From: Panaeolus papilionaceus
Taxonomy: Eukaryota > Basidiomycota > Agaricomycetes > Agaricales
Direction: 5' to 3'
NCBI GenBank assembly: GCA_015501605.1
Contig: JADNRZ010000021.1
Location: 186,001-250,000, forward strand
DNA: 64,000 bases
The notes under the pieces: generated by a model
Database searches by the model: none
Told to the model about the DNA's origin: nothing
What the model saw: the letters and a program-made list of their open reading frames with translations, nothing else
Position numbers and translations under genes: made by a program
Shown here: positions 7,943-40,852 of the stretch, in pieces
How the letters are laid out: each line of letters opens with the position of its first letter
How positions within the stretch are numbered: the stretch's first letter is position 1

Positions 7943-7950
7943 TTTTTCAT
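7943..7950. repeat. Target-site duplication half TTTTTCAT at left end of KDZ copy 1
   Basis: The eight bases before the terminal CACCTG are TTTTTCAT. They do not match the right flank of the same copy (CACGGGGG) but are the exact reverse complement of the left flank of copy 2 (ATGAAAAA, 30622-30629). KDZ/Zisupton elements are known for 8-bp duplications. Confidence 0.85.
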
Positions 7951-8315
7951 CACCTGTAGCTACCACGTGTCCCCTCTAGTTAGAGGTGACCACCCATTGA
8001 GTGACCACCTCTAACTAGAGGGTCCTAATATATATTATCGTTCTTTCTGGAAATGCTCTACGGGGGGTTCGAATACTTAGAAAATTTACTGTTTGTCCAC
8101 CGGTAACTTAGGTGGCATGATCAGGGTGTTGTCCCACGGCTGCTCGTCACCATCAAAGGTCGTCGTCGTCGTTGATGGCGCTCCCTCCGCCATCAATCCC
8201 TTTATGGCAATTGATGGCCTTCATCATTTCAACATTTCTCATCATCATCGCGCACGACGAGCTCGTATTCTCTTAATAACTTGCTCAAATTAATCGTATA
8301 AGTTCAGGAAAAATT
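7951..8315. repeat. Left terminal inverted repeat of KDZ copy 1
   Basis: About 365 bp, repeated in inverse at 17799-18165 and at both ends of copy 2. Within it: CACGTG at 7964-7969; a hairpin with perfect 17-bp arms (7972-7988 and 8006-8022) whose interior repeats GTGACCACC; and four CCATCAA/TTGATGG motifs at 8150, 8172, 8190 and 8211, the middle two forming a 9-bp-arm inverted repeat (8172-8196). These are probable transposase-binding sites. The 66-codon frame inside it is a repeat artefact without a recognisable product. Confidence 0.9.
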
Positions 8316-8366
8316 AATAATAATAAAATAGGATGAAATAAAATTATTTAAATATATGAACTGGGT

Positions 8367-11300
8367 TTAAACGCAAACAACGGCTTCCAGTGCGTGACAA
8401 ACTTCATCCACTCTTCTCAAGACCTCCTCCTCTGCCTCTTCATTGTCCTCCTCTTCCTCCGGTGACGAGTCCTTGGAATGGCTTGCAATCCTTAACAATG
8501 GCGCGGCAGCATCCCCATTTTCTCTGCTGACCCCCGGAGAAATGCTGCCAGTGAATCCAGGGAGCAAGGAAAGCTTCTGCAGCTTCCTCAGATGAACATC
8601 GTTGAGCTGCTCCAGAGCAAGCCGCTTCTGCCTGATCTGGTGTGCAAGGGCTGGCTTGTGCGGAAGCAACTCCTTCTCCTTTCCTAGGAGAAGAGCCTCT
8701 TCATCCCTGATGAATGTCACGAGGCGGGGAATTTCGACGTTAAGTCTCTGGATCTCCTCTCGGGCGCGCTTGATCTTGAAGTACTGGTCTAACAGTGCGC
8801 GACTTGCGGCCTTCGCCCAAGCCCTCTCCCGAATGTCGCTTCGCGTTTCGGAAAGGAGGTCGAAATCGGCAAGAAAGGCATATTCAACCACACTGTCCCA
8901 GGCCAGGTGTGGTTTCGGGGGATTGAGAGCTGATGCGGCAGCGTTGTATCGCTCCAAGGCATTTCGAATTGCCTGGGAGCGGGTTTTAAGGGCATTCCCT
9001 ATGTGCTTTCGGAGTTTGTAGCCTAAGGGTGGTCTGTATTGGTGGTGGGAAGGGTTATAAGGTGCAGGGCACTCACCGGTTCCAGACATATTCATCTTAG
9101 AAAGTTCAAACATCCTAGAAACCACCAGTCCCTCCAGACTATCCAAGGCCCTCTGATACTTTCTCTGCTTGACCAGTTTTTCCGCCGCCTTCCACTCTGG
9201 ATCCCGCTGTTTCCATCGAACTTTTATCTCAAGCTTCCTTTCCAGCTCCTGGACCCGTAGGAGGTCTTTCCTTGTGATTTCTTGGGCATGTCGTCGCGCT
9301 GTCTCCTTCCTCTGGGTGGCATCCTTGACCGAGGCCATGTTCTCCGGTGTCAGAACTACAAATGTCTCCTTGAGGGCCTCCTTCTCTGCTTTCCTAAGCG
9401 CAATTACGGTCAATTGGGAACCAAGGGAGAGGGGTGTTCTGCTTACATGCTAGCGTGATAGTTCACCAAGGACTGCCAGTACTCCATTTTGACCGTTTCC
9501 TCCTGCGGTTCCCTCTTGAGATTCTCCAGGTACTCCTGTTCCTCCTTGAGCCAGAGAGAAAATACATTCTCATCGGCAATCCCCTGAGCCTTCATTTGCG
9601 AAAGGAGTGATTCTTCTGTGGCGATAATATCCAAAGCTTGCTTATAATTATTAACCAAAAAAGTGCCTATGGATCTATTAGTCAGGGCCCTTAAAAGTGC
9701 GATAAACACTTACTGAGGTTGGCATAGGTCTCGTATCTATCCATGTGTGCGAGAAACCCCGATATTCTTTGCATACGATGAAAGACGCTTGCATGGCGAA
9801 TCGATGATGCAAGCGCGTTTGAACGAGAGAAGAATCGCTCACACGTTTCAAGGTCCTCCAGCCCCATACCCTTAACATAGGTCGCCAGAAGCTTCAGCTG
9901 GCAGAGGCGGTTGTGGGCGTGACCATGGAAGCTGCCGACTAGGGACTTGTAGTTCATCGATTTTGCTTTGGGCCCAAGAGGGCTTTTAGAAATGGTGGTT
10001 TCGAATTGACACCCGATGTCGTATCCCCCGCCTAGATTGGGTCCAAATGCATCCAAAAGAGCTTTGACGACGGCGAGCGGGTATTTGGATCTTGGGAACT
10101 CTTCGTTAGGAACTATATTGGTGAGAAGCAGATGGGTACTCACAGCTCTCCGCTCTGAACCATGTCAAGAACGACTAGGACGAACCCATGCCTGCAGAGC
10201 GCCAGGAAGATTCCTGTTTCATCAAACATTCTCCACATCTTCTCCGTCAATTCGCTAGCCATATTCTTCCACCGATCTTCACAAGGGGTCTTCAGTTCTG
10301 CAGCCCTTATGGCCTTGATCAGCCGGTGAGTGAAATGGTGGGGAGCATAGAGCATCAGGGCATACCTCCACATTACTTGGGTTCTCTAACCACCCCTTGA
10401 TCGTGTCCTTCGCCCAGAGATCAACCTGCTCTCTTGGAAGGTAGTAGTCACCGCCAGGGGTCCGTCCGTCCTCCCGCTCGCTCACCAGCCCCAGCCCCGA
10501 TTCATCCGTTTCCCCGCCCCGCCCTCTCCTCCTTAGCACCCGCTTCAGCGAATCATTCCCATCCATAGCAAACAGCATATCAAAATGAAGCTGCGGTTCC
10601 CCCTCTAACTTGTAGGTGCAACAGGGACATGCATGACGAAGGCGCCAGCTGGCTGAGTCCCAGTTCAGTGCGGATTGAACCCTCTGGTCGACTTCCTCCA
10701 AAATTGAGAGATACAAATCCATGCAGATCGAGAACTGCTTGGACAGGTATGACGCATACGGAACCCCTTGGATATCGCAGATGGATTTGATGAAGGGTTG
10801 GATGGCAAGGTGGGGGGAGCGAAGGCTGAGGGTTCGGTATAGCTCGACCAGCCGGACGGTGACAGCAACAGTGGGGGTGTGGGGGGCACACGGTATAACG
10901 CCGTGTCGGATGAGAGATGCAGGAATGGAATGATGTCCTTGAAGAAGGGGGACCTGTTTGGCATGTGAGGCTGTAAATATGTTGAGCAGGTATAAGAAAG
11001 AAAGAAGAGGGCGACTTACTTACTGTATACATCTACGACTTTGATGGGGTACATGTCCTGAACAATTTCGGAAGGGGAAGTAGGGTTGTCTTCCGCCAGA
11101 CCATCCTCGCCTAGGGATGATGCCCAGGCGAGGTATGAATCAGTACAGCCCGTCAGCTGCGATGCAAAGGCGACATTTCGTTTTTGAGTCTGATCACAGC
11201 GGGTACGCGTGTCAACTCGAGGAGGGCTACAGCAAAAGACTCCAAGTTAGATGTCTATTGTAGTGTAGTTGAATTAGAGAAATACACGTACCGTTTATCA

Positions 11301-11638
11301 TCACGGAGCGCGTCGCATACGATTTCAAACAACTCCCCACCCTCGTGGCTGATATCCACCTGTCTTGTCCCATCCAGCACCCCGTCGAGTTGCATATAAT
11401 CGTCCTCGTCGGCATTAATATCATACCAGCCGACGTCGTCGGCGTCAAACTCTCTCTCCACCATGTATCCACCCGCTGCATATGCATCTGCCTCCTGTTC
11501 TTCCCGTTGTCGCCTTCGACCCTCTGCCTGTTGTGCCTCGAGTAGCTTTCGCTCCTTGGTGGTCAAGACACGGTCGGGGAGCATCTCATGATTGGCATCA
11601 GAACCTAAAAGTCGAGGCTCTCGTCGTCGCTTTGACAT
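8367..11638 (-). CDS. KDZ-family transposase, copy 1
   Basis: DDE-type transposase of the KDZ superfamily, expected to bind the element ends in the nucleus and mobilise the element. It starts MSKRRREPRLLG at 11638 and has seven exons with short introns. Diagnostic segments: HAKQVPLLQGHHSIPASLIR and RHACPCCTYKL (zinc-binding CxCC); LFAMDGNDSLKR with the first acidic residue; GPNLGGGYDIGC with the second; SFHGHAHNRLCQL; and CERFFSRSNALAS with the third. The C-terminal third is a Lys/Glu-rich coiled coil ending in an acidic tail. The frame is continuous through all exons, so the gene looks intact. Copy 2 differs at two residues: Asp to Asn near residue 22 (11576) and Trp to Arg in the segment before the CxCC motif (10662). 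Confidence 0.93.
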
Positions 11639-11730
11639 ACTTTGAAAGAGAGTTTACTAGATGGTACGATCATGGCGATCAAGTTGGCGGTCATTGTCAT
11701 TGTCAACGGAGATTCGTGTTCAAGTTTGAA

Positions 11731-11763
11731 GATCACGTGTGTGTGATTGCACGACACGTGATC
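11731..11763. promoter_or_regulatory. CACGTG dyad in the transposase/TET-like bidirectional promoter (copy 1)
   Basis: Perfect 10-bp inverted repeat GATCACGTGT (11731-11740) and ACACGTGATC (11754-11763) with a 13-bp spacer, in the gap between the divergent starts at 11638 and about 11813-11942. Each arm holds a CACGTG E-box, a bHLH/bZIP-type site. Role is inferred from position. Confidence 0.5.
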
Positions 11764-11812
11764 ATTGTTGATCCCAACTGCTTGGTCCCAAATAGGAAAT
11801 TAAGCAGCTCTG

Positions 11813-13078
11813 ATGCTTTCCGCCACTCGTCTTGTAACTTCAAGTCAACCACCCGCTCCCCCTCCTTCCAGTCGGTGCATGCTTTCATGTGATCACAGAA
11901 TGCTACTTCCTGCTTGTGTGTATTATTCCTCCATTCATGTAATGCCACAATTAATGATACTGCACCCTCAGGTATTGTGCCAGGGCCGGCCCCTTCTCCC
12001 TCGATTTCCGTTTGATTTCGACTCTGGTTTTGGACGCCTTTCACATAGAGGAGTCAGGCTGCTGCCGACGACCTCTTTTGAACACATTCAGCTCAGCGAC
12101 CCCCTTGAACTGGTCATCGGCGCTTCTGCTTTCCCTGCGGATTCAAGTGGATATGAAGGACTTCAGCTGAAAGGTCCCAAGGAGGAACTGGGGCGCGTGT
12201 TTAGGCTCACCCAGCTCTCAGAAAGGAGCTTTGAGATCTTGTTTATCGTGGAATGGGATGTAATGTTCGTCTCCTTGCCACCCCCTCTACACCGCTATTG
12301 AATAATTCAACCAGGGACTGCTGCTTGTTGGCTGGAATGCTCAAAGACCCCTCTTTTCGCCAGGCGTTGAGCAGGGTGTTTGAATTTGTCTTACAGGAGG
12401 GTGGGGAGGCCGAATTCTTACTTCCCGAGGAAACGGTGCCAATACTGATATTCAGTGCATCGCCCTATACGCTGACAGTAAGTCGCCGATCCTATTGCCA
12501 TCTGCATTCTGCTAATGCCCCCCATTCAACAATATGCAGGCTTCTTCGAACTGTGCCCCCCGACTTCACGCGTACTATCGGAGCACACTGCCTGGCTGTC
12601 GAAGAAAAGATAGGTGAGCACCCGAATTTTAGAGGGAATGTCTTCGCGGCCACAAACGTCAATCTGAGGGGTCGCATTTGCACTTTCATGCATCGTGACT
12701 CCATCAACCTGTTCACGGCTGGTGCGCAATTCCTACTCTTGGGGATTTTGACCCCAAGAAGAGTGGTGACCTGGTTTTATGGGATCTCAAACTTGTTATC
12801 GCGTTCCCACCAAGATCCACCATCCTGATACCATTCGCCACTCTTGCTTATTCCAGCACCGGGCTTGGTCATTTGGAAAGCTACCTATCCATTACGCAGT
12901 ACACAGCAGGCGGCGTCTTTCGATGGATAGGGAATGGATTTATGTCGGAGCAGTGGTCGAAGGTAGCAGACAGGATTAGATACGAATATATGCTTAGTTT
13001 AAAGAATACAAGGTTTCGGCATAGTTTGGCTATGTACTCGACCCTCGATGAATTAACTGAAAGGATAAAATGTAGCAT
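11813..13078 (+). pseudogene. TET/JBP-like 2OG-Fe(II) dioxygenase, frameshifted (copy 1)
   Basis: TET/JBP enzymes oxidise 5-methylcytosine or thymine in DNA, and fungal members are often carried by KDZ elements. Family motifs are visible but in different frames: QCIALYAD before an intron; CAPRLHAYYRSTL (frame starting 12549, ending in a stop at 12615); NVFAATNVN and the Fe-ligand HxD segment MHRDSINLF (12688 onward, another frame); then CAIPTLGDFDPKKSGDLVLW and LVIAFPPRSTILIP back in the first frame; and ITQYTAGGVFRWIGNGF with the 2OG-binding Arg. No intron fits between the HxD and CAIPTLGDF segments, so at least two frameshifts are present. In addition, the distal iron-binding His, usually in an L-x-H-S-N context, is Tyr here (ATLAYSST, near 12840). 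Probably catalytically dead; the start is uncertain. Confidence 0.72.
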
Positions 13079-13714
13079 AATCCAACTTGGCTATTTATTT
13101 TTGAGTGGGGTCATGAAGTGGATGAAGTTTAAACGTAAAACCCTATGGATAACCTACTTGCAATCTGGAGAAATCGATCACCACTCGAAAATCTTAAAAA
13201 AACTTCTTGTCATATTTTTAAAATAGACAAAATTATAAGACCTTCTGCCCATTACGAATTTTATCCAATGGTCTATTCCCTCGCAATTCAATGAACTTTG
13301 ATCCCTTCGCCTGCCAAAATTGACTGTTTTCTCATTTAGCAAATTCCAGCGTGGCTACCATGGCTCTTGCTCTTTAAATTGATTAATTTTGTAGATGATT
13401 GATTTAACTTACTATATAGACCTTTAATTTGTCTACCTGCGTGCTCCTGAGTATACTGGAAGCATATTTTGCTTTTCGATACCCCTCCCAGAAAGGAAAT
13501 CGACGCCAAGACTCTTGATTCAGGGATAGGCGCTGGCTCATATCCAATCAGATTGCAGTATTCCATCTTTGACTTTAGGGGGACTCGGAGGTCAATATCT
13601 CATGTCAATATCAAATCTTTCAAGGTTTCGAAAAAAGCGCATGTATAAAATATTTACAGAGTTTACATAGAGCAAATTGAAAGAAATCCAAGCTGTGGGA
13701 CTTCTAAGCTACCC
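13079..13714. other. AT-rich spacer between convergent element genes (copy 1)
   Basis: AT-rich stretch between the 3' ends of the TET-like pseudogene and the RNase H1-N-like gene. A 76-codon frame on the minus strand (13336-13566) has no recognisable motif. Copy 2 has one extra base, a C after the position matching 13270. Confidence 0.5.
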
Positions 13715-15094
13715 TTATAAGTAGGCGGCCATCACAGAGTCGACGAACAGCTGATTAGCATCCCCCCTTGTATCAGCGACAAGAATTCTGGACCCGCCTA
13801 CACTTTCCATTCCAACCGCAAGCTTAGCCTCGGCACTTTACTAAATGTTAGCAGCAGCATCAAGTGGAAGCGGTGAAATGTACTCACTAGTCCAAATAGA
13901 CCCCAGGATAATTGCCTGAGCAGACAACGAAGAAGGGGGATGGTGATATCGGAGAGGGTCTTGAAACGGAGTCATGGGTGGTAGAAGGGGTGGCACCCCC
14001 ATCAGGTTTTGGTTCTGGGAAGGGCATGGAGTATGCCGCGCTACCTAAAGGCTCGCGATGCATACCTCTGTGGCCGCCGGCTTTGGGAAACCGAGAGGGT
14101 TGAGCAGCAGAGACGGACCCAGCAGAAATAGACGCAGTGCGTGAGGCTGAGGGAGTAGAGACGCTCGACCTCATCCGGGCTGGGGATCTGACTGTTACAC
14201 AAGAGAAGGGATGACTGACAAACGATGAAGGAGATGGAGGAGGTTTTGAAACTCCAGTAGGGGGCTGGGGTTTAGTGGGACTGGGGCTTCTCGTAGCCCC
14301 GAAAGAAGAAGAGGGGCTGCGGGAGACCTTAGTTTTTGCAACGCCGCCATGCTCTGGAGAAAGAGGAACCGTATCATAGGACTTGAAGAAGGCATATGCT
14401 TCCTCAGCCTCTTCATAGCTGCTATATCCCTGGAGCTGTCGAGTGGCAGGGGCTTGACCGAGATAGTAGCTTGCTGACGCCCTGACTAGATATAAGAAGT
14501 AATAGGTATTGACATGGTAGACGACTCACCAATTATAATGTATACCATCACCTGCCCCCCCAAACAGGATATAACAAATGCGACGTTTGGGACCCGATGG
14601 AGGTTGGCGATCATATCGATCAGGTGGGTTGGGATCCATCACCGACAGTTGCTGAAACCCATCGCACAAACCGCTGTCGCCGCCGTCATCCTCTTCCTGA
14701 GTAAACCAGTCGCGATTGCCTACCAAAGGAGCCCATGGGTTAGAAACACTAATGATAGAGAAGAGGAACACTCACGGTAGTCATAGCCAGGCTCTTGCTT
14801 GATGGCAGCTGTCAAACCACATCAAATATCAGTGACTGGTTTCCGGTGAGAAGTGCGTGTCGACTTACCCACGTCAGGGTACCCTGCATTCTCCCTTATC
14901 TGCACCTGAGGCCTTTCCTCGCTAACCGTATCCCTTCCTCCTCTGTTTCTTGAAAGGCTATGTCCTAGAAGCAAATCAACAACAGTAGTCAGAAAGAGGT
15001 GAGTTTTAATACCTGCTTGACTTAGAGTACTATGTTTAACGTGCATGGTCGAAAGTAACAGGCCACACGTTTGATTGGGTTCAACAATCAACAT
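13715..15094 (-). CDS. Element-borne protein with RNase H1 N-terminal-like (Cauli_VI) modules, copy 1
   Basis: Third gene of the element. It starts MLIVEPNQTCGL at 15094 and ends VDSVMAAYL at 13715, with about seven exons. One exon encodes ICYILFGGAGDGIHYNW, and the next encodes SASYYLGQAPATRQLQGYSS followed by YEEAEEAYAFF. Together these match the pattern of the RNase H1 N-terminal domain, an RNA:DNA-hybrid or dsRNA-binding fold (Y-x-V-x-x-G-x-x-x-G-I-Y-x-x-W, then V-x-G, then a G-[YF]-x-S-x-x-E-A-x-x-A-Y end). After a Ser/Pro-rich linker a second, weaker module begins FFVVCSGNYPGVYLD. No RNase H catalytic domain is present, so a nucleic-acid-binding role is inferred. It is head-to-head with the acidic-protein gene. 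Copy 2 appears identical over this gene. Confidence 0.6.
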
Positions 15095-15255
15095 GTTGAG
15101 AGCTGGCCATGGGAAGAATCAACAAAGACCACGTGACCGCGTCGCGTCGCGCTTGTTTAGCACCTGATGTTGTTTAACACAGATTGGAAGGTTGTAACTT
15201 GTTGCAGCAAGTCCCCCGTTTCTTTCCGTCTAAGTACACCAACTACTCTCTAAAA
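15095..15255. promoter_or_regulatory. Bidirectional promoter of element genes 3 and 4 (copy 1)
   Basis: Only 161 bp separate the divergent starts at 15094 and 15256. The gap holds CACGTG at 15130-15135 followed by GTCGCGTCGCG. This is the same hexamer as in the other divergent promoter and in the element ends. Confidence 0.45.
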
Positions 15256-17629
15256 ATGCCTTCCATATTTTCTATGTTAAACCCAGTGGACATTCCACCA
15301 ATTCCATCCGCCTCAACGCCCCCAAGTTCTATTTTTACTTTTGTTGATCAGTCTATTCCTGGATCTCCGGAATATCCAGGGTCGTTGCCTGACAGCTCGG
15401 CTTCCCAGGAGCAGCGCAGCCACGCCGTCGAATCAACTTCTCAGTCCATTCTCACATCCACGCAACCCGTCTCCACTCCACCGCAATCTCCGAGTGCTGC
15501 AAACTTCTTCACTCCCGACGACAACGACCCTCCGAATTCTGGCCTTGACCTTGAGGATGAGGTTGACGAAAATCCCCTTCATGGCGCTCGATATACCCTT
15601 CCCTCTGCATCCCCCCCTCCGCTTCTAAGCTCTAGCCCCTCAAGACCCTACCTTCCTGATGGTTTTGTTGATAGTGGTGGATCAAGCACTCATGCCCTTC
15701 GGAATCCCACAAAGCCAGTCATTCCTCCACGATTCCGTCCTAGCCGATCCAAAGCTGATGCAGCTAAAGGCAGTCTCAAGGATGCCAAAGCTCAGAGGAA
15801 CAGCAAGAAGGTCGCCATCGCTGAGGACATCAAGAGAATTCAAGCCGAGCATGCCGCCAGCATTGAGGCCGTGGCCACCAAGCACAAGATATCCAAGAAG
15901 AAGGTCAAGGCTCAGACCATGTTTGAAACGGTCTTCAAGCCCTCTCGAGCCCCTAACTCTTTCAACGCCCTCGTTTCAGCGCTTGGTGAGGAGCTTAATG
16001 CAGGTATGTAACTCGATTTTATGATAATACATGTTTGTGTGATGCTGAATGATGGTTCGGTAACAGACCGCGGCCTGCATGAGAAGATTCCTTTGCACGA
16101 ACTACAGAATATGGTTAGGGATGGCCAGAGGGATGGGACCATTACGAAGGAACAGACTAAGAAGGCAGTAGAGCGCTTGCGGGAAATTCGGGCCCTGCAG
16201 CAACGGGGGGCAAGGTCTAGTAATACTGCTGCTGACGCCGATGCAAGGTCCTCTATCTCGAAAATTTCCAAGGAGGTAAGTCTTTGAAACCCCCTCCTGC
16301 CAATAAGGTTCTTTAGCTCACTTATTCTGTCCACAGGTTGTTGGCGTTGCTGAACGAAGTGGAGCCATAGGCTTTGCTCTCTTCGTCAAAGGCCACATTC
16401 ATGACGATCTCCGGCCAACCATTATCCAAAGTCTCGGAGCGGGAGAATTTCTGAAGGAGCGGTATAACATCGACCCTCTCGATATGGGCGTAGACTTTGA
16501 GCAATGGTCGTGTGCCCGGAAAAAGCTGGGTGAGTTTGTGCAATTTTGTAGATGTTTAACCCCTCCCTCTAATCATGTCCTTCATATTCAGGTAAAGCTG
16601 TACCGGATGGTCTCCCTGCAGTCAAAGCCCAATGTACAAACATTATTCTCCGCGGACTTCGTGAGTTTCAGCCCTCTTCTTTCACCGCTTTCATGATCTC
16701 ATGCACAAACATCTACAGAGAAAATCACCGCCGAGAAGTCGATTCGAATGAACTACAAAAATTACTATCGCGCTATTGTACTCAAGCATCATGTCCACCT
16801 GCTAGGATGGCCCCAAAATGTACCCTTCACCACCCCTTCCAACATCACCAATATCGATGACGCCCGGACGCTTCGCGATTGCCTCAATACCAAGATTTGC
16901 AACTGGCAGAGGGTTACCGCTACGCAGCTGAAACACTACCGGCAAAAATACAGATCTAAGAGCTCTGGAGCCGATGAATTGAGCTCGGATTCGATGGAGG
17001 AAGACGACGACGAGCAACAGGACGATGATGAGCGGGAAGACAACGACGATGAAGAGCAGGAAGACAATAACGACGATGAGCGGGAAGATGACCACAACGA
17101 CGAACATGAAGTGGGGCGGGATGATGAAGATGAGTGGGAGGATGAAGACGAGCCGGAAGAGGAGGAGGAGGAGGAGGAAAATAGCGGCGAGGAAGAAGAG
17201 GAGCTATCTGCCGCAGCCGACAGGCTGACAAACAGGAAGAGGAAGGCCATTGAACCCCCCAGCCATGGTCGCAGCAAGAAGCGCCAGCATACCACCGTTT
17301 CAAACCCCCCGTCCCTACCCCTGGGTGCTAGCCGCATCTCCAACCTTCCTTCTATACCACCCCGCCAACGCAATGCTGCATCCTCCAAATCGAAACGCCC
17401 CCATCCAGCTAAAGGAGGAACCTCCCAGTCCCAAGTCATAACCGGGAAACGCGGAAAGACAAGCGCCTCTACCCACCGTCCCCCTCAGCTCACTCCTCAA
17501 CCCCCCACAGTTCGTCGACGACCAGGCAGCCAGCAAGGACAACAAATTCGAAATCAAAAACTCTCAGCACAATTTCCGCCCGCTTTCAAAAGTCGAGAGT
17601 ATATCAATACAGAGGATGAGGAGGAGTAA
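15256..17629 (+). CDS. Acidic nuclear-type protein of agaricomycete TE-associated family, copy 1
   Basis: The start MPSIFSMLNP at 15256 (AAAAATGCC context) is preferred over the in-frame ATG at 15184. An N-terminal Ser/Pro-rich region leads to a Lys-rich coiled coil near SKKKVKAQTMFETVFKPS. Following exons read EKIPLHELQNMVRDGQRDGT, ERSGAIGFALFVKGHIHDDL, FEQWSCARKKL and MNYKNYYRAIVLKHHVHLLG, the last continuing WPQNVPFTTPSNI. I associate this HLLGWPxxVPFxxPS block with uncharacterised proteins frequent in agaric genomes. The C-terminus has a long Asp/Glu run (about 17000-17210) and then basic NLS-like NRKRKAIEPP and GRSKKRQ. A chromatin or transposition accessory role is only inferred. This copy is open throughout, unlike copy 2. 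Confidence 0.7.
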
Positions 17630-17798
17630 CCTTAGCAATATTTATTCACATCTTGGTATCTTTGAAGGACTTAACCCGCCTTCAACATTTATATGATTTA
17701 CTCAATACAATGTTTTGAATGTTCTTTTAACCCATGTGTGCTCATAATTGAATTAATTAAAATATAATATTGTTCTATAGAACAGACTATGTACATCT

Positions 17799-18165
17799 TA
17801 ATTTTTCCCTGAATTTATACGATTAATTTGAGCAAGTTATTAAGAGAATACGAGCTCGTCGTGCGCGATGATGATGAGAAATGTTGAAATGATGAAGGCC
17901 ATCAATTGCCATAAAGGGATTGATGGCGGAGGGAGCGCCATCAACGACGACGACGACCTTTGATGGTGACGAGCAGCCGTGGGACAACACCCTGATCATG
18001 CCACCTAAGTTACCGGTGGACAAACAGTAAATTTTCTAAGTATTCGAACCCCCCGTAGAGCATTTCCAGAAAGAACGATAATATATATTAGGACCCTCTA
18101 GTTAGAGGTGGTCACTCAATGGGTGGTCACCTCTAACTAGAGGGGACACGTGGTAGCTACAGGTG
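17799..18165. repeat. Right terminal inverted repeat of KDZ copy 1
   Basis: Inverse copy of 7951-8315, ending GGTAGCTACAGGTG at 18165 and with CACGTG at 18147-18152. It differs from the left repeat only at the inner edge (CCCTGAATTTATACG against CCTGAACTTATACG). Confidence 0.9.
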
Positions 18166-18173
18166 CACGGGGG
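18166..18173. repeat. Target-site duplication half CACGGGGG at right end of KDZ copy 1
   Basis: The eight bases after the terminal CAGGTG are CACGGGGG. The mate, as CCCCCGTG, lies on the right side of copy 2 (40845-40852), not on the left of copy 1. Confidence 0.85.
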
Positions 18174-30621: not shown

Positions 30622-30629
30622 ATGAAAAA
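30622..30629. repeat. Target-site duplication half ATGAAAAA at left end of KDZ copy 2
   Basis: Eight bases immediately before CACCTGTAGC of copy 2; reverse complement of TTTTTCAT at 7943-7950. The right flank of copy 2 is different (CCCCCGTG). Confidence 0.85.
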
Positions 30630-30996
30630 CACCTGTAGCTACCACGTGTCCCCTCTAGTTAGAGGTGACCACCCATTGAGTGACCACCTCTAACTAGAGG
30701 GTCCTAATATATATTATCGTTCTTTCTGGAAATGCTCTACGGGGGGTTCGAATACTTAGAAAATTTACTGTTTGTCCACCGGTAACTTAGGTGGCATGAT
30801 CAGGGTGTTGTCCCACGGCTGCTCGTCACCATCAAAGGTCGTCGTCGTCGTTGATGGCGCTCCCTCCGCCATCAATCCCTTTATGGCAATTGATGGCCTT
30901 CATCATTTCAACATTTCTCATCATCATCGCGCATGACGAGCTCGTATTCTCTTAATAACTTGCTCAAATTAATCGTATAAATTCAGGGAAAAATTA
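30630..30996. repeat. Left terminal inverted repeat of KDZ copy 2
   Basis: Counterpart of 17799-18165. One C-to-T change at 30934 (CGCATGACG against CGCACGACG in the other repeats) is at a CpG. Confidence 0.9.
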
Positions 30997-31165
30997 AGAT
31001 GTACATAGTCTGTTCTATAGAACAATATTATATTTTAATTAATTCAATTATGAGCACACATGGGTTAAAAGAACATTCAAAACATTGTATTGAGTAAATC
31101 ATATAAATGTTGAAGGCGGGTTAAGTCCTTCAAAGATACCAAGATGTGAATAAATATTGCTAAGG

Positions 31166-33538
31166 TTACTCCTCCTCATCCTCTGTATTGATATACTCTC
31201 GACTTTTGAAAGCGGGCGGAAATTGTGCTGAGAGTTTTTGATTTCGAATTTGTTGTCCTTGCTGGCTGCCTGGTCGTCGACGAACTGTGGGGGGTTGAGG
31301 AGTGAGCTGAGGGGGACGGTGGGTAGAGGCACTTGTCTTTCCGCGTTTCCCGGTTATGACTTGGGACTGGGAGGTTCCTCCTTTAGCTGGATGGGGGCGT
31401 TTCGATTTGGAGGATGCAGCATTGCGTTGGCGGGGTGGTATAGAAGGAAGGTTGGAGATGCGGCTAGCACCCAGGGGTAGGGACGGGGGGTTTGAAACGG
31501 TGGTATGCTGGCGCTTCTTGCTGCGACCATGGCTGGGGGGTTCAATGGCCTTCCTCTTCCTGTTTGTCAGCCTGTCGGCTGCGGCAGATAGCTCCTCTTC
31601 TTCCTCGCCGCTATTTTCCTCCTCCTCCTCCTCCTCTTCCGGCTCGTCTTCATCCTCCCACTCATCTTCATCATCCCGCCCCGCTTCATGTTCGTCGTTG
31701 TGGTCATCTTCCCGCTCATCGTCGTTATTGTCTTCCTGCTCTTCATTGTCGTTGTCTTCCCGCTCATCATCGTCCTGTTGCTCGTCGTCGTCTTCCTCCA
31801 TCGAATCCGAGCTCAATTCATCGGCTCCAGAGCTCTTAGATCGTATTTTTGCCGGTAGTGTTTCAGCTGCGTAGCGGTAACCCTCTGCCAGTTGCAAATC
31901 TTGGTATTGAGGCAATCGCGAAGCGTCCGGGCGTCATCGATATTGGTGATGTTGGAAGGGGTGGTGAAGGGTACATTTTGGGGCCATCCTAGCAGGTGGA
32001 CATGATGCTTGAGTACAATAGCGCGATAGTAATTTTTGTAGTTCATTCGAATCGACTTCTCGGCGGTGATTTTCTCTGTAGATGTTTGTGCATGAGATCA
32101 TGAAAGCGGTGAAAGAAGAGGGCTGAAACTCACGAAGTCCGCGGAGAATAATGTTTGTACATTGGGCTTTGACTGCAGGGAGACCATCCGGTACAGCTTT
32201 ACCTGAATATGAAGGACATGATTAGAGGGAGGGGTTAAACATCTACAAAATTGCACAAACTCACCCAGCTTTTTCCGGGCACACGACCATTGCTCAAAGT
32301 CTACGCCCATATCGAGAGGGTCGATGTTATACCGCTCCTTCAGAAATTCTCCCGCTCCGAGACTTTGGATAATGGTTGGCCGGAGATCGTCATGAATGTG
32401 GCCTTTGACGAAGAGAGCAAAGCCTATGGCTCCACTTCGTTCAGCAACGCCAACAACCTGTGGACAGAATAAGTGAGCTAAAGAACCTTATTGGCAGGAG
32501 GGGGTTTCAAAGACTTACCTCCTTGGAAATTTTCGAGATAGAGGACCTTGCATCGGCGTCAGCAGCAGTATTACTAGACCTTGCCCCCCGTTGCTGCAGG
32601 GCCCGAATTTCCCGCAAGCGCTCTACTGCCTTCTTAGTCTGTTCCTTCGTAATGGTCCCATCCCTCTGGCCATCCCTAACCATATTCTGTAGTTCGTGCA
32701 AAGGAATCTTCTCATGCAGGCCGCGGTCTGTTACCGAACCATCATTCAGCATCACACAAACATGTATTATCATAAAATCGAGTTACATACCTGCATTAAG
32801 CTCCTCACCAAGCGCTGAAACGAGGGCGTTGAAAGAGTTAGGGGCTCGAGAGGGCTTGAAGACCGTTTCAAACATGGTCTGAGCCTTGACCTTCTTCTTG
32901 GATATCTTGTGCTTGGTGGCCACGGCCTCAATGCTGGCGGCATGCTCGGCTTGAATTCTCTTGATGTCCTCAGCGATGGCGACCTTCTTGCTGTTCCTCT
33001 GAGCTTTGGCATCCTTGAGACTGCCTTTAGCTGCATCAGCTTTGGATCGGCTAGGACGGAATCGTGGAGGAATGACTGGCTTTGTGGGATTCCGAAGGGC
33101 ATGAGTGCTTGATCCACCACTATCAACAAAACCATCAGGAAGGTAGGGTCTTGAGGGGCTAGAGCTTAGAAGCGGAGGGGGGGATGCAGAGGGAAGGGTA
33201 TATCGAGCGCCATGAAGGGGATTTTCGTCAACCTCATCCTCAAGGTCAAGGCCAGAATTCGGAGGGTCGTTGTCGTCGGGAGTGAAGAAGTTTGCAGCAC
33301 TCGGAGATTGCGGTGGAGTGGAGACGGGTTGCGTGGATGTGAGAATGGACTGAGAAGTTGATTCGACGGCGTGGCTGCGCTGCTCCTGGGAAGCCGAGCT
33401 GTCAGGCAACGACCCTGGATATTCCGGAGATCCAGGAATAGACTGATCAACAAAAGTAAAAATAGAACTTGGGGGCGTTGAGGCGGATGGAATTGGTGGA
33501 ATGTCCACTGGGTTTAACATAGAAAATATGGAAGGCAT
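31166..33538 (-). pseudogene. Acidic nuclear-type protein, copy 2, frameshifted
   Basis: Inverted copy of the gene at 15256-17629, starting MPSIFSMLNP at 33538. It is identical until the exon starting MNYKNYYRAIV. One base is missing near 31842 (TACGATC against TACAGATC in copy 1), so the frame leaves at QKYDLRALEPMN and stops instead of entering the acidic region. The downstream acidic and NLS-like part remains open only in a separate frame (31166-31915). The truncated product would keep the HLLGWPQNVPF block but lose the Asp/Glu run and the basic motifs. Other changes include Val to Ala and Asp to Asn in the acidic run. Confidence 0.75.
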
Positions 33539-33699
33539 TTTTAGAGAGTAGTTGGTGTACTTAGACGGAAAGAAACGGGGGACTTGCTGCAACAAGTTAC
33601 AACCTTCCAATCTGTGTTAAACAACATCAGGTGCTAAACAAGCGCGACGCGACGCGGTCACGTGGTCTTTGTTGATTCTTCCCATGGCCAGCTCTCAAC
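33539..33699. promoter_or_regulatory. Bidirectional promoter of element genes 3 and 4 (copy 2)
   Basis: Counterpart of 15095-15255, with CACGTG at 33659-33664. Confidence 0.45.
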
Positions 33700-35079
33700 A
33701 TGTTGATTGTTGAACCCAATCAAACGTGTGGCCTGTTACTTTCGACCATGCACGTTAAACATAGTACTCTAAGTCAAGCAGGTATTAAAACTCACCTCTT
33801 TCTGACTACTGTTGTTGATTTGCTTCTAGGACATAGCCTTTCAAGAAACAGAGGAGGAAGGGATACGGTTAGCGAGGAAAGGCCTCAGGTGCAGATAAGG
33901 GAGAATGCAGGGTACCCTGACGTGGGTAAGTCGACACGCACTTCTCACCGGAAACCAGTCACTGATATTTGATGTGGTTTGACAGCTGCCATCAAGCAAG
34001 AGCCTGGCTATGACTACCGTGAGTGTTCCTCTTCTCTATCATTAGTGTTTCTAACCCATGGGCTCCTTTGGTAGGCAATCGCGACTGGTTTACTCAGGAA
34101 GAGGATGACGGCGGCGACAGCGGTTTGTGCGATGGGTTTCAGCAACTGTCGGTGATGGATCCCAACCCACCTGATCGATATGATCGCCAACCTCCATCGG
34201 GTCCCAAACGTCGCATTTGTTATATCCTGTTTGGGGGGGCAGGTGATGGTATACATTATAATTGGTGAGTCGTCTACCATGTCAATACCTATTACTTCTT
34301 ATATCTAGTCAGGGCGTCAGCAAGCTACTATCTCGGTCAAGCCCCTGCCACTCGACAGCTCCAGGGATATAGCAGCTATGAAGAGGCTGAGGAAGCATAT
34401 GCCTTCTTCAAGTCCTATGATACGGTTCCTCTTTCTCCAGAGCATGGCGGCGTTGCAAAAACTAAGGTCTCCCGCAGCCCCTCTTCTTCTTTCGGGGCTA
34501 CGAGAAGCCCCAGTCCCACTAAACCCCAGCCCCCTACTGGAGTTTCAAAACCTCCTCCATCTCCTTCATCGTTTGTCAGTCATCCCTTCTCTTGTGTAAC
34601 AGTCAGATCCCCAGCCCGGATGAGGTCGAGCGTCTCTACTCCCTCAGCCTCACGCACTGCGTCTATTTCTGCTGGGTCCGTCTCTGCTGCTCAACCCTCT
34701 CGGTTTCCCAAAGCCGGCGGCCACAGAGGTATGCATCGCGAGCCTTTAGGTAGCGCGGCATACTCCATGCCCTTCCCAGAACCAAAACCTGATGGGGGTG
34801 CCACCCCTTCTACCACCCATGACTCCGTTTCAAGACCCTCTCCGATATCACCATCCCCCTTCTTCGTTGTCTGCTCAGGCAATTATCCTGGGGTCTATTT
34901 GGACTAGTGAGTACATTTCACCGCTTCCACTTGATGCTGCTGCTAACATTTAGTAAAGTGCCGAGGCTAAGCTTGCGGTTGGAATGGAAAGTGTAGGCGG
35001 GTCCAGAATTCTTGTCGCTGATACAAGGGGGGATGCTAATCAGCTGTTCGTCGACTCTGTGATGGCCGCCTACTTATAA
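33700..35079 (+). CDS. Element-borne protein with RNase H1 N-terminal-like modules, copy 2
   Basis: Same protein as at 13715-15094, here on the plus strand, where the exon order is easy to follow. MLIVEPNQTCGL starts at 33700; NRDWFTQEEDDGGDSG and RRICYILFGGAGDGIHYNW lie in 34075-34264; SASYYLGQAPATRQLQGYSS in 34313-34372; and YEEAEEAYAFFKS follows. A Ser/Pro linker leads to FFVVCSGNYPGVYLD (to about 34904), then a short intron with an AAAG acceptor and AEAKLAVGMESVGGSRILVA to the stop at 35077-35079. No differences from copy 1 were seen. Function inferred as nucleic-acid binding only. Confidence 0.6.
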
Positions 35080-35716
35080 GGGTAGCTTAGAAGTCCCACA
35101 GCTTGGATTTCTTTCAATTTGCTCTATGTAAACTCTGTAAATATTTTATACATGCGCTTTTTTCGAAACCTTGAAAGATTTGATATTGACATGAGATATT
35201 GACCTCCGAGTCCCCCTAAAGTCAAAGATGGAATACTGCAATCTGATTGGATATGAGCCAGCGCCTATCCCTGAATCAAGAGTCTTGGCGTCGATTTCCT
35301 TTCTGGGAGGGGTATCGAAAAGCAAAATATGCTTCCAGTATACTCAGGAGCATGCAGGTAGACAAATTAAAGGTCTATATAGTAAGTTAAATCAATCATC
35401 TACAAAATTAATCAATTTAAAGAGCAAGAGCCATGGTAGCCACGCTGGAATTTGCTAAATGAGAAAACAGTCAATTTTGGCAGGCGAAGGGATCAAAGTT
35501 CATTGAATTGCGAGGGAATAGACGCATTGGATAAAATTCGTAATGGGCAGAAGGTCTTATAATTTTGTCTATTTTAAAAATATGACAAGAAGTTTTTTTA
35601 AGATTTTCGAGTGGTGATCGATTTCTCCAGATTGCAAGTAGGTTATCCATAGGGTTTTACGTTTAAACTTCATCCACTTCATGACCCCACTCAAAAATAA
35701 ATAGCCAAGTTGGATT
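35080..35716. other. AT-rich spacer between convergent element genes (copy 2)
   Basis: Counterpart of 13079-13714; one extra base at 35524. Nothing recognised. Confidence 0.45.
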
Positions 35717-36982
35717 ATGCTACATTTTATCCTTTCAGTTAATTCATCGAGGGTCGAGTACATAGCCAAACTATGCCGAAACCTTGTATTCTTTAAACTA
35801 AGCATATATTCGTATCTAATCCTGTCTGCTACCTTCGACCACTGCTCCGACATAAATCCATTCCCTATCCATCGAAAGACGCCGCCTGCTGTGTACTGCG
35901 TAATGGATAGGTAGCTTTCCAAATGACCAAGCCCGGTGCTGGAATAAGCAAGAGTGGCGAATGGTATCAGGATGGTGGATCTTGGTGGGAACGCGATAAC
36001 AAGTTTGAGATCCCATAAAACCAGGTCACCACTCTTCTTGGGGTCAAAATCCCCAAGAGTAGGAATTGCGCACCAGCCGTGAACAGGTTGATGGAGTCAC
36101 GATGCATGAAAGTGCAAATGCGACCCCTCAGATTGACGTTTGTGGCCGCGAAGACATTCCCTCTAAAATTCGGGTGCTCACCTATCTTTTCTTCGACAGC
36201 CAGGCAGTGTGCTCCGATAGTACGCGTGAAGTCGGGGGGCACAGTTCGAAGAAGCCTGCATATTGTTGAATGGGGGGCATTAGCAGAATGCAGATGGCAA
36301 TAGGATCGGCGACTTACTGTCAGCGTATAGGGCGATGCACTGAATATCAGTATTGGCACCGTTTCCTCGGGAAGTAAGAATTCGGCCTCCCCACCCTCCT
36401 GTAAGACAAATTCAAACACCCTGCTCAACGCCTGGCGAAAAGAGGGGTCTTTGAGCATTCCAGCCAACAAGCAGCAGTCCCTGGTTGAATTATTCAATAG
36501 CGGTGTAGAGGGGGTGGCAAGGAGACGAACATTACATCCCATTCCACGATAAACAAGATCTCAAAGCTCCTTTCTGAGAGCTGGGTGAGCCTAAACACGC
36601 GCCCCAGTTCCTCCTTGGGACCTTTCAGCTGAAGTCCTTCATATCCACTTGAATCCGCAGGGAAAGCAGAAGCGCCGATGACCAGTTCAAGGGGGTCGCT
36701 GAGCTGAATGTGTTCAAAAGAGGTCGTCGGCAGCAGCCTGACTCCTCTATGTGAAAGGCGTCCAAAACCAGAGTCGAAATCAAACGGAAATCGAGGGAGA
36801 AGGGGCCGGCCCTGGCACAATACCTGAGGGTGCAGTATCATTAATTGTGGCATTACATGAATGGAGGAATAATACACACAAGCAGGAAGTAGCATTCTGT
36901 GATCACATGAAAGCATGCACCGACTGGAAGGAGGGGGAGCGGGTGGTTGACTTGAAGTTACAAGACGAGTGGCGGAAAGCAT
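35717..36982 (-). pseudogene. TET/JBP-like 2OG-Fe(II) dioxygenase, frameshifted (copy 2)
   Basis: Inverted copy of 11813-13078 with the same frame breaks and the same Tyr in place of the distal iron-binding His. Because both copies share every lesion, the decay happened before the last round of transposition. Confidence 0.72.
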
Positions 36983-37031
36983 CAGAGCTGCTTAATTTCC
37001 TATTTGGGACCAAGCAGTTGGGATCAACAAT

Positions 37032-37064
37032 GATCACGTGTCGTGCAATCACACACACGTGATC
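37032..37064. promoter_or_regulatory. CACGTG dyad in the transposase/TET-like bidirectional promoter (copy 2)
   Basis: Same 10-bp-arm inverted repeat (GATCACGTGT / ACACGTGATC) as in copy 1, 93 bp upstream of the transposase start. Confidence 0.5.
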
Positions 37065-37156
37065 TTCAAACTTGAACACGAATCTCCGTTGACAATGACA
37101 ATGACCGCCAACTTGATCGCCATGATCGTACCATCTAGTAAACTCTCTTTCAAAGT

Positions 37157-40100
37157 ATGTCAAAGCGACGACGAGAGCCTCGACTTTTAGGTTCTGATGC
37201 CAATCATGAGATGCTCCCCAACCGTGTCTTGACCACCAAGGAGCGAAAGCTACTCGAGGCACAACAGGCAGAGGGTCGAAGGCGACAACGGGAAGAACAG
37301 GAGGCAGATGCATATGCAGCGGGTGGATACATGGTGGAGAGAGAGTTTGACGCCGACGACGTCGGCTGGTATGATATTAATGCCGACGAGGACGATTATA
37401 TGCAACTCGACGGGGTGCTGGATGGGACAAGACAGGTGGATATCAGCCACGAGGGTGGGGAGTTGTTTGAAATCGTATGCGACGCGCTCCGTGATGATAA
37501 ACGGTACGTGTATTTCTCTAATTCAACTACACTACAATAGACATCTAACTTGGAGTCTTTTGCTGTAGCCCTCCTCGAGTTGACACGCGTACCCGCTGTG
37601 ATCAGACTCAAAAACGAAATGTCGCCTTTGCATCGCAGCTGACGGGCTGTACTGATTCATACCTCGCCTGGGCATCATCCCTAGGCGAGGATGGTCTGGC
37701 GGAAGACAACCCTACTTCCCCTTCCGAAATTGTTCAGGACATGTACCCCATCAAAGTCGTAGATGTATACAGTAAGTAAGTCGCCCTCTTCTTTCTTTCT
37801 TATACCTGCTCAACATATTTACAGCCTCACATGCCAAACAGGTCCCCCTTCTTCAAGGACATCATTCCATTCCTGCATCTCTCATCCGACACGGCGTTAT
37901 ACCGTGTGCCCCCCACACCCCCACTGTTGCTGTCACCGTCCGGCTGGTCGAGCTATACCGAACCCTCAGCCTTCGCTCCCCCCACCTTGCCATCCAACCC
38001 TTCATCAAATCCATCTGCGATATCCAAGGGGTTCCGTATGCGTCATACCTGTCCAAGCAGTTCTCGATCTGCATGGATTTGTATCTCTCAATTTTGGAGG
38101 AAGTCGACCAGAGGGTTCAATCCGCACTGAACCGGGACTCAGCCAGCTGGCGCCTTCGTCATGCATGTCCCTGTTGCACCTACAAGTTAGAGGGGGAACC
38201 GCAGCTTCATTTTGATATGCTGTTTGCTATGGATGGGAATGATTCGCTGAAGCGGGTGCTAAGGAGGAGAGGGCGGGGCGGGGAAACGGATGAATCGGGG
38301 CTGGGGCTGGTGAGCGAGCGGGAGGACGGACGGACCCCTGGCGGTGACTACTACCTTCCAAGAGAGCAGGTTGATCTCTGGGCGAAGGACACGATCAAGG
38401 GGTGGTTAGAGAACCCAAGTAATGTGGAGGTATGCCCTGATGCTCTATGCTCCCCACCATTTCACTCACCGGCTGATCAAGGCCATAAGGGCTGCAGAAC
38501 TGAAGACCCCTTGTGAAGATCGGTGGAAGAATATGGCTAGCGAATTGACGGAGAAGATGTGGAGAATGTTTGATGAAACAGGAATCTTCCTGGCGCTCTG
38601 CAGGCATGGGTTCGTCCTAGTCGTTCTTGACATGGTTCAGAGCGGAGAGCTGTGAGTACCCATCTGCTTCTCACCAATATAGTTCCTAACGAAGAGTTCC
38701 CAAGATCCAAATACCCGCTCGCCGTCGTCAAAGCTCTTTTGGATGCATTTGGACCCAATCTAGGCGGGGGATACGACATCGGGTGTCAATTCGAAACCAC
38801 CATTTCTAAAAGCCCTCTTGGGCCCAAAGCAAAATCGATGAACTACAAGTCCCTAGTCGGCAGCTTCCATGGTCACGCCCACAACCGCCTCTGCCAGCTG
38901 AAGCTTCTGGCGACCTATGTTAAGGGTATGGGGCTGGAGGACCTTGAAACGTGTGAGCGATTCTTCTCTCGTTCAAACGCGCTTGCATCATCGATTCGCC
39001 ATGCAAGCGTCTTTCATCGTATGCAAAGAATATCGGGGTTTCTCGCACACATGGATAGATACGAGACCTATGCCAACCTCAGTAAGTGTTTATCGCACTT
39101 TTAAGGGCCCTGACTAATAGATCCATAGGCACTTTTTTGGTTAATAATTATAAGCAAGCTTTGGATATTATCGCCACAGAAGAATCACTCCTTTCGCAAA
39201 TGAAGGCTCAGGGGATTGCCGATGAGAATGTATTTTCTCTCTGGCTCAAGGAGGAACAGGAGTACCTGGAGAATCTCAAGAGGGAACCGCAGGAGGAAAC
39301 GGTCAAAATGGAGTACTGGCAGTCCTTGGTGAACTATCACGCTAGCATGTAAGCAGAACACCCCTCTCCCTTGGTTCCCAATTGACCGTAATTGCGCTTA
39401 GGAAAGCAGAGAAGGAGGCCCTCAAGGAGACATTTGTAGTTCTGACACCGGAGAACATGGCCTCGGTCAAGGATGCCACCCAGAGGAAGGAGACAGCGCG
39501 ACGACATGCCCAAGAAATCACAAGGAAAGACCTCCTACGGGTCCAGGAGCTGGAAAGGAAGCTTGAGATAAAAGTTCGATGGAAACAGCGGGATCCAGAG
39601 TGGAAGGCGGCGGAAAAACTGGTCAAGCAGAGAAAGTATCAGAGGGCCTTGGATAGTCTGGAGGGACTGGTGGTTTCTAGGATGTTTGAACTTTCTAAGA
39701 TGAATATGTCTGGAACCGGTGAGTGCCCTGCACCTTATAACCCTTCCCACCACCAATACAGACCACCCTTAGGCTACAAACTCCGAAAGCACATAGGGAA
39801 TGCCCTTAAAACCCGCTCCCAGGCAATTCGAAATGCCTTGGAGCGATACAACGCTGCCGCATCAGCTCTCAATCCCCCGAAACCACACCTGGCCTGGGAC
39901 AGTGTGGTTGAATATGCCTTTCTTGCCGATTTCGACCTCCTTTCCGAAACGCGAAGCGACATTCGGGAGAGGGCTTGGGCGAAGGCCGCAAGTCGCGCAC
40001 TGTTAGACCAGTACTTCAAGATCAAGCGCGCCCGAGAGGAGATCCAGAGACTTAACGTCGAAATTCCCCGCCTCGTGACATTCATCAGGGATGAAGAGGC

Positions 40101-40428
40101 TCTTCTCCTAGGAAAGGAGAAGGAGTTGCTTCCGCACAAGCCAGCCCTTGCACACCAGATCAGGCAGAAGCGGCTTGCTCTGGAGCAGCTCAACGATGTT
40201 CATCTGAGGAAGCTGCAGAAGCTTTCCTTGCTCCCTGGATTCACTGGCAGCATTTCTCCGGGGGTCAGCAGAGAAAATGGGGATGCTGCCGCGCCATTGT
40301 TAAGGATTGCAAGCCATTCCAAGGACTCGTCACCGGAGGAAGAGGAGGACAATGAAGAGGCAGAGGAGGAGGTCTTGAGAAGAGTGGATGAAGTTTGTCA
40401 CGCACTGGAAGCCGTTGTTTGCGTTTAA
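37157..40428 (+). CDS. KDZ-family transposase, copy 2
   Basis: Plus-strand copy. Exon 1 runs 37157-37503 (MSKRRREPRLLG to RDDK). An intron with donor GTACGT and acceptor CTGTAG precedes exon 2 at 37569. Intron 2 begins at GTAAGT 37772, and exon 3 holds HAKQVPLLQGHHSIPASLIR, RHACPCCTYKL and LFAMDGNDSLKR. Later exons hold GGGYDIGC near 38770, CERFFSRSN near 38950, and the coiled-coil C-terminus ending at 40428. All junctions keep the frame. Differences from copy 1: Asn for Asp (LPNRVLTTKE) and Arg for Trp (NRDSASWRL). The three catalytic acidic residues are unchanged, so both copies may encode active enzyme. Confidence 0.93.
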
Positions 40429-40479
40429 ACCCAGTTCATATATTTAAATAATTTTATTTCATCCTATTTTATTATTATT

Positions 40480-40844
40480 AATTTTTCCTGAACTTATACG
40501 ATTAATTTGAGCAAGTTATTAAGAGAATACGAGCTCGTCGTGCGCGATGATGATGAGAAATGTTGAAATGATGAAGGCCATCAATTGCCATAAAGGGATT
40601 GATGGCGGAGGGAGCGCCATCAACGACGACGACGACCTTTGATGGTGACGAGCAGCCGTGGGACAACACCCTGATCATGCCACCTAAGTTACCGGTGGAC
40701 AAACAGTAAATTTTCTAAGTATTCGAACCCCCCGTAGAGCATTTCCAGAAAGAACGATAATATATATTAGGACCCTCTAGTTAGAGGTGGTCACTCAATG
40801 GGTGGTCACCTCTAACTAGAGGGGACACGTGGTAGCTACAGGTG
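40480..40844. repeat. Right terminal inverted repeat of KDZ copy 2
   Basis: Counterpart of 7951-8315, ending CAGGTG at 40844. Confidence 0.9.
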
Positions 40845-40852
40845 CCCCCGTG
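40845..40852. repeat. Target-site duplication half CCCCCGTG at right end of KDZ copy 2
   Basis: Reverse complement of CACGGGGG at 18166-18173, the right flank of copy 1. Confidence 0.85.

Follow-up and report, generated by a model that had tools for sequence, protein, structure and literature searches.

Two near-identical copies of a KDZ DNA transposon stand in opposite orientations on either side of a 12.5-kb interval in the dung mushroom Panaeolus papilionaceus, and their 8-bp target-site duplications are exchanged between them. Homologous opposite copies (99.91% identity) occupy both breakpoints of the interval, which lies within the window, that is, the whole 64,000-nucleotide stretch analyzed here (contig JADNRZ010000021.1, positions 186,001 to 250,000). 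The interval as assembled probably differs in orientation from its state at insertion, a reading for which the exchange of duplications gives strong support and the transporter order kept in a P. cyanescens gene model gives weaker support. Insertion of two sister copies followed by a recombinational flip of the interval is the best explanation of this arrangement, and one toward which we lean slightly.

The two elements and the parts of copy 1 are as follows.

7951 to 18165, plus strand: KDZ transposon copy 1 (10,215 bp), with both end boundaries and the KDZ domain
7951 to 8318, plus strand: left terminal inverted repeat (TIR) of copy 1, about 368 bp
17798 to 18165, minus strand: right TIR of copy 1, about 368 bp
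9691 to 11019, minus strand: KDZ transposase reading-frame pieces of copy 1 (ORF 9691-10164 and ORF 10279-11019)
15178 to 17629, plus strand: second set of long open frames of copy 1 (15178-16011 and 16697-17629)
30630 to 40844, minus strand: KDZ transposon copy 2 (10,215 bp), inverted relative to copy 1

The ends of both copies are clear, reading CACCTGTAGC...GCTACAGGTG at 7951/18165 and 30630/40844. ORF 9691-10164 carries the KDZ transposase domain PF18758 (153.5 bits against a cut-off of 26.6), which is also present in 120 of 120 homologs among the matches listed, of 694. ORF 10279-11019 scores 23.3 bits against the same domain, under the cut-off (26.6), and PF18802 (CxC1, a cysteine cluster beside the KDZ domain) scores 18.2 bits against a cut-off of 26.9; a Pfam scan of frame 15178-16011 at E 0.01 returned no match. 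The TIRs and 8-bp target duplications place the element with the Zisupton/Dileera type of KDZ DNA transposon. Over 10.2 kb the two copies are separated by seven substitutions, all of them CpG transitions, and two one-base indels (window positions 10662, 11575, 13270/13271, 13441, 16952, 17048, 17112, 17464 and 17861).

Four 8-bp flanks adjoin the elements.

7943 to 7950, plus strand: flank A, TTTTTCAT, outer left of copy 1
18166 to 18173, plus strand: flank B, CACGGGGG, inner right of copy 1
30622 to 30629, minus strand: reverse complement of flank A, ATGAAAAA, inner left of copy 2
40845 to 40852, minus strand: reverse complement of flank B, CCCCCGTG, outer right of copy 2

Read in element orientation, copy 1 has TTTTTCAT on its left and CACGGGGG on its right, and copy 2 has CACGGGGG on its left and TTTTTCAT on its right. 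As assembled, the left and right flanks of each copy differ from one another at 8/8 bases, and no shorter flush match between one element's own flanks was found in either copy. Flipping 18166-30629 in silico gives both insertion sites 8/8 duplications; base 9 is mismatched at both sites, which fixes the length of the duplications at exactly 8 bp. The window's plus strand contains single occurrences of CACGGGGG, ATGAAAAA and CCCCCGTG and three of TTTTTCAT. When 8-mers were drawn at random in pairs from the unique part of the window, 160 of 4,000,000 pairs matched (4e-5), which puts the chance of both crosswise matches at about 1.6e-9, and no double match arose in 2,000,000 trials. An earlier note on this DNA had claimed that neither element has matching flanks of its own, that the flanks instead match crosswise as exact 8-bp reverse complements, that re-inverting the 12.5-kb interval restores a duplication around each element, and that two such matches by chance are very unlikely; these measurements bear out all of this.

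Related elements elsewhere in the genome do carry duplications of their own. On contig C6 an inverted pair 15 kb apart, whose members differ by one indel in 8.6 kb (fewer differences than the window pair), has an 8/8 duplication around each element (ACCGCACG twice and TGAGAACG twice), and the element on contig C16 has one at 7/8 (GTTGGATT/GTCGGATT). All three related elements that could be read at both ends thus have duplications of their own (two at 8/8, one at 7/8), a control that consists of the C6 pair and the C16 element, with 134 KDZ-domain matches lying outside it. A third copy of the window element is cut off by the end of contig C12, 3,436 bp into the copy; probes from 11000-17800 and the TIR did not recover its remaining part. 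Over this 3.4 kb, copies 1 and 2 have the same base at 8/8 positions where copy 3 departs from the pair and show a single difference between themselves, and they are closer kin to each other than to copy 3. Since the pair agrees at all eight positions, copy 3 offers no informative sites for chimerism. The terminal motif has 19 matches genome-wide (the reversed control pattern has 8). The window pair, the C6 pair and the C16 element, five elements in all, account for 10 of the 19 through their paired ends, and the C12 copy accounts for one. The other eight are single matches and enter no element count; when about 100 bp around five of them was viewed, one, on contig C67, was clearly an element end, and 2 kb of additional sequence did not reveal the opposite end of that element.

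The interval between the copies and the phosphate-transporter genes around it are as follows.

18166 to 30629, no strand: interval between the copies, 12,464 bp, probably inverted relative to the insertion-time arrangement
4300 to 6435 (about 4.3-6.4 kb), plus strand: phosphate transporter PT1 (P0126), start approximate
24263 to 26300 (about 24.2-26.3 kb), minus strand: phosphate transporter PT2 (P0125), ends approximate
27409 to 29703 (about 27.4-29.7 kb), minus strand: phosphate transporter PT3 (P0123), start approximate

When the interval is flipped back, the PT1, PT3 and PT2 genes form one head-to-tail array, in agreement with the earlier claim that the flip puts the three phosphate symporters in one orientation (as assembled, PT1 is on the plus strand, PT2 and PT3 on the minus). 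An original head-to-tail array of the three genes is supported but not proven. A gene with a topoisomerase domain lies at 41 kb, beyond copy 2. No gene broken at the insertion sites is restored by the flip, the frames that cross the joins being short (93 aa or less). A search of the same genome for an empty or uninverted allele with both joined sites found only separate halves, on contig C14.

A gene model from Panaeolus cyanescens, CVT24_008683, consists of a PT1 ortholog (84% identical) fused head to tail with a second transporter. In the tree this second half groups with PT2 and PT3 (96/94), and it does so again when 10 further transporters are added (95/90, and 92% of 200 bootstrap trees), with a long branch. 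The possibility that it is a duplicate private to P. cyanescens was rejected (p-AU 0.0035); its placement with PT1 was not (p-AU 0.06). In pairwise BLAST the second half scores 429 bits with PT3, 450 with its own first half and 424 with PT1, and so is no closer to PT3 than to either of these. The order of the model, a PT1 ortholog and then a PT2/PT3 relative, gives the flipped-back arrangement independent, indirect backing of moderate strength, at site A only.

In the history that we favor, two sister copies of the 10.2-kb element would have landed 12.5 kb from each other, facing opposite ways. Each insertion would have duplicated 8 bp of target sequence, one producing A, between PT1 and PT3, and the other B, at the far end of the interval. 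Afterwards the two inverted and nearly identical copies, or their 368-bp ends, would have crossed over an odd number of times and flipped the interval, leaving each element with one half of each duplication and splitting the three phosphate-transporter genes of the head-to-tail array. Recombination is to be expected between long inverted repeats that are nearly identical. The earlier note had held that homologous recombination flipped the segment; its inversion relative to the insertion state stands on the exchanged duplications, and we infer both that the flip is present in the living fungus rather than in the assembly only and that homologous recombination caused it.

It is possible, if on balance doubtful, that the genome keeps the insertion-time order and that the assembler or the finishing step took a wrong path through the 10.2-kb inverted repeats. 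Such a misorientation would predict all of the observations equally well, including the gene model of the relative. With repeats 99.91% identical over 10.2 kb the risk is a live one, as the end of contig C12 inside the third copy, with its far part missing, illustrates. The presumed source study, in the excerpts drawn on here, used Illumina and PacBio data with Velvet, AllPathsLG or Falcon, and finisherSC, across its genomes as a set (PMC8480192). Yet the window contig runs through both copies, unlike C12, which stops inside copy 3; the C6 pair, with fewer differences, was assembled in an order consistent with its duplications; and nine separate differences are kept between copies 1 and 2, which were therefore not collapsed into one consensus. 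Telomere repeats (TTAGGG x4), sought as a gauge of how good the assembly is, gave 0 matches and were uninformative.

An alternative absent from the earlier note, from which the same swap is expected, is hybrid-element insertion, in which a single element stands at A and a left end and a right end from two sister chromatids insert at nearby B. One such transposition would give the second copy, the inversion and the exchanged duplications, and its product, derived by hand, is A-E-B'...A'-E'-B, exactly as observed. It would also explain sister copies, short distance and opposite orientation together, and the agreement of copies 1 and 2 at 8/8 positions where copy 3 differs, with one mutual difference in the first 3.4 kb, is compatible with such a birth and equally with recent local transposition. 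Against it, the C6 pair is a local inverted sister pair with its own duplications in this same genome, so that local transposition and recombination need no special event, although a hybrid-element insertion that later flipped back would look like the C6 pair. Hybrid-element insertion is thought to be rare compared with recombination between 10-kb repeats, and we consider it improbable here. The pattern of differences does not separate the two readings because the copies are near-identical sisters: their seven CpG transitions and two indels lack the chimeric signature that proved recombination in Galileo.

That two unrelated insertions match crosswise by coincidence, or through decay of their own duplications, is a negligible prospect, for which we found no evidence, given the chance of about 1.6e-9 for both matches and own flanks that differ at 8/8 bases in copies only about 0.1% diverged.

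If sister copies did insert and the interval was flipped by recombination between them, near-identical 10-kb arms might also flip repeatedly, making the interval an invertible switch with both orientations coexisting among P. papilionaceus nuclei or strains, a suggestion we make tentatively and think rather unlikely. Were it true, swapped and matched target duplications would read out odd and even numbers of flips, local inverted KDZ pairs (the second, on C6, being in the matched state) would be a general source of isomers, and flips would alter the neighborhood of two phosphate-transporter genes. A real inversion would document, to the base, how a KDZ pair rearranged a mushroom gene cluster, with the unswapped C6 sister pair as a control in the same genome, and would show that large KDZ elements, by jumping locally, make segments prone to recombination. 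Should the arrangement be an assembly error, target duplications would be a cheap detector of misoriented segments in fungal assemblies built from long reads. In both cases, the swapped-duplication test is applicable to any genome with recent large DNA transposons.

The element resembles other fungal KDZ transposons of the Zisupton/Dileera and KDZ1 kind, as described in excerpts of the literature, in its length of about 10-11 kb, long TIRs, KDZ transposase domain and 8-bp duplications. Zisupton and Dileera make 8-bp duplications (PMC12730594), as does KDZ1 of Cryptococcus neoformans, whose TIRs are 241 bp (PMC12810828) as against about 368 bp here. Kyakuja, which lacks TIRs, makes 7-bp duplications (PMC12730594) and KDZ2 and KDZ3 of Cryptococcus make duplications of 4-8 bp (PMC12810828), so the 8-bp rule is not universal among KDZ elements. 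The window pair flanks a probable inversion, whereas the excerpted accounts of fungal KDZ elements (PMC12810828 among them) describe none through a KDZ pair, and the excerpts of PMC12730594, PMC2775673, PMC12510652 and PMC12810828 describe no exchange of duplications for a KDZ element or in a fungus.

The classic elements for alternative transposition are P and Ac/Ds. Both hybrid element insertion and reversed-ends transposition are named in the excerpted text of PMC2775673, which describes the same swapped duplications for the former together with a prediction of identical copies. Hybrid element insertion shares the exchanged duplications of the window pair but presupposes a single parental element site. 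By our own hand derivation, reversed-ends transposition would leave one duplication common to the two inner flanks, a pattern different from that of the window pair and not seen; transposition of the whole composite (element-interval-element), likewise derived by hand, would give the two outer flanks one duplication, which was not seen either.

The closest known system is the Galileo-mediated inversion 2z3 of Drosophila buzzatii (Delprat et al., 2009; PMC2775673). There, according to the excerpted account, the breakpoints are occupied by two opposite DNA transposon copies whose target duplications have been swapped and match as exact reverse complements, as they do here. Galileo belongs to the P superfamily and makes 7-bp duplications, whereas the window pair is KDZ, with 8 bp and a 12.5-kb segment; and for 2z3, as that account has it, non-inverted chromosomes were available and the copies were shown to be chimeric, whereas here there is one assembly and chimerism has no informative sites. 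The logic of the swap is thus already known from Galileo, and the window pair is a known kind of rearrangement.

The target-site duplications of the two KDZ transposons in the window match crosswise. The features on which this finding bears, in the window (C14:186001-250000) and in the rest of the searched genome (50.85 Mb, 71 contigs) of Panaeolus papilionaceus, a mushroom that colonises dung, are listed below. The strain is probably CIRM-BRFM 715, which is named in PMC8480192.

About 4.3-6.4 kb, plus strand: phosphate transporter PT1, left of copy 1
7951-18165: KDZ copy 1, 10,215 bp, in opposite orientation to copy 2
About 26.3-24.2 kb, minus strand: phosphate transporter PT2, far end of the interval between the copies
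About 29.7-27.4 kb, minus strand: phosphate transporter PT3, far end of the interval
30630-40844: KDZ copy 2, 10,215 bp, in opposite orientation to copy 1
43816-45162: frame equal to a P. papilionaceus protein except for 20 residues (a read-through intron) and the protein's further 60 end residues
Contig C12, 2943381-2946816: partial copy 3, 3,436 bp before the contig end cuts the element; left flank ATTGCTAT
Contig C6, 177105-185690 and 200552-209138: inverted pair of a related KDZ family, 8.6 kb each, one indel apart

Read along each element's own orientation, the flanks are TTTTTCAT then CACGGGGG at copy 1 and CACGGGGG then TTTTTCAT at copy 2, and in both copies alike the two own flanks mismatch at 8 of 8 bases. 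When the interval 18166-30629 is flipped in silico, the flanks match at all eight bases at both sites. Of 4,000,000 pairs of 8-mers drawn at random from the window's unique sequence, 160 matched (4e-5), so that both crossed matches would be expected about once per 6e8 trials. These figures bear out an earlier note, which had claimed that the flanks match crosswise, that flipping the interval restores a perfect 8-bp duplication around each element, and that two such matches by chance are very unlikely.

Related elements elsewhere in the genome served as controls. The C6 copies, with 391-bp terminal inverted repeats (TIRs) and an interval of 14.9 kb, each have their own perfect 8-bp duplication, ACCGCACG and TGAGAACG, and a relative on C16 has flanks GTTGGATT and GTCGGATT, alike at seven of eight bases. 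Matched flanks were thus found in all three related elements with both ends readable, as against neither of the two in the window; for a fourth relative, on C67, one end was located and a search for the other did not find it. Duplications of 8 bp are described for the Zisupton and Dileera kinds of KDZ elements in the portion consulted of PMC12730594, and the portion consulted of PMC12810828 gives 8 bp for Cryptococcus KDZ1 and 4-8 bp for KDZ2 and KDZ3. The swap is confirmed and controlled. The KDZ domain has 134 matches across the genome, several of which lie on separate contigs and score identically; they offer ample material for testing how often duplications are swapped genome-wide.

Copies 1 and 2 are 99.91% identical, with TIRs of ~368 bp, and the KDZ transposase domain (PF18758; 153.5 bits, cut-off 26.6) lies in a minus-strand frame of copy 1, with a weak second domain piece, under the cut-off, in the adjoining frame. 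From end to end, seven substitutions and two single-base indels separate them. All seven substitutions are CpG transitions, suggesting that the copies are methylated and decay by deamination. In the 3.4 kb shared with copy 3, copies 1 and 2 are alike at all eight positions where copy 3 departs from both and differ from each other once; judged against copy 3, they are sisters. Probing the genome with the TIR and with 11000-17800 did not recover the rest of copy 3. The pattern of differences fits recent local transposition followed by methylation-driven decay. An imperfect palindrome in the outer TIR (7972-8022), with a matching part in the family's other TIRs, spans ~51 bp, is 86% identical to its own reverse complement and is a possible binding or hairpin feature.

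The transporters bear on which orientation came first. Flipping back gives the order PT1 - element - PT3 - PT2, adjacent and on a single strand; the earlier note had proposed the shared orientation. A public Panaeolus cyanescens gene model of 1026 aa, CVT24_008683 (P0124), holds two transporters in a row and appears to be two adjacent phosphate transporters fused in one model. The first half of the model shares 84% identity with PT1 and clusters with it (86/86, tree with 10 further transporters). Its second half groups with PT2 and PT3 at 96/94 in a seven-row tree; with trimming and 10 further transporters added, the values are 95/90 and the grouping recurs in 92% of 200 bootstrap trees. Against it stand the long branch, pairwise BLAST, in which PT3 (429 bits) gains no preference over the model's own first half (450) or PT1 (424), and the AU test, which does not reject a placement with PT1 (p-AU 0.06). 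The test does reject a duplication confined to P. cyanescens (p-AU 0.0035). Because a fused gene model needs neighbours on one strand, P. cyanescens most likely shows the gene order of the flipped-back arrangement, and the assembled orientation would then be derived, or wrong.

Elsewhere in the window, 40981-42393 and 49934-51314 form an inverted pair of 74% identity; a eukaryotic topoisomerase I domain (PF01028) lies in a frame that the former overlaps, and the pair is possibly a duplicated topoisomerase gene. Neighbouring frames 21294-21773 and 23023-23454 look by eye like mutual paralogs, with no Pfam match.

Three routes could lead to the swap. We favour homologous recombination, with either the whole inverted copies or their TIRs as partners, which would flip the interval: inverted copies are an ideal substrate, and inverted sisters that lie close together and keep their own duplications do occur, as on C6. 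The earlier note had taken this route as given; the swap of the flanks stands, and recombination is now the favoured of three explanations. That the assembler took a wrong path through the repeats retains a substantial minority of the probability, since a contig did once end inside the element, at copy 3; that the window's contig passes both copies, where the other ended at copy 3, speaks modestly for a real inversion. Alternatively, in hybrid-element insertion, the two ends that insert together nearby would come from different sister chromatids, the left from one and the right from its sister; worked through, this gives the same flank order as observed. According to the part consulted of Delprat et al. 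(PMC2775673), the hybrid-element model differs solely in leaving identical, not chimeric, copies; copies 1 and 2 have so few differences, with every substitution a CpG transition, that they offer no sites able to show chimerism. The mechanism is known in kind, and the setting, a KDZ element in a mushroom, is new.
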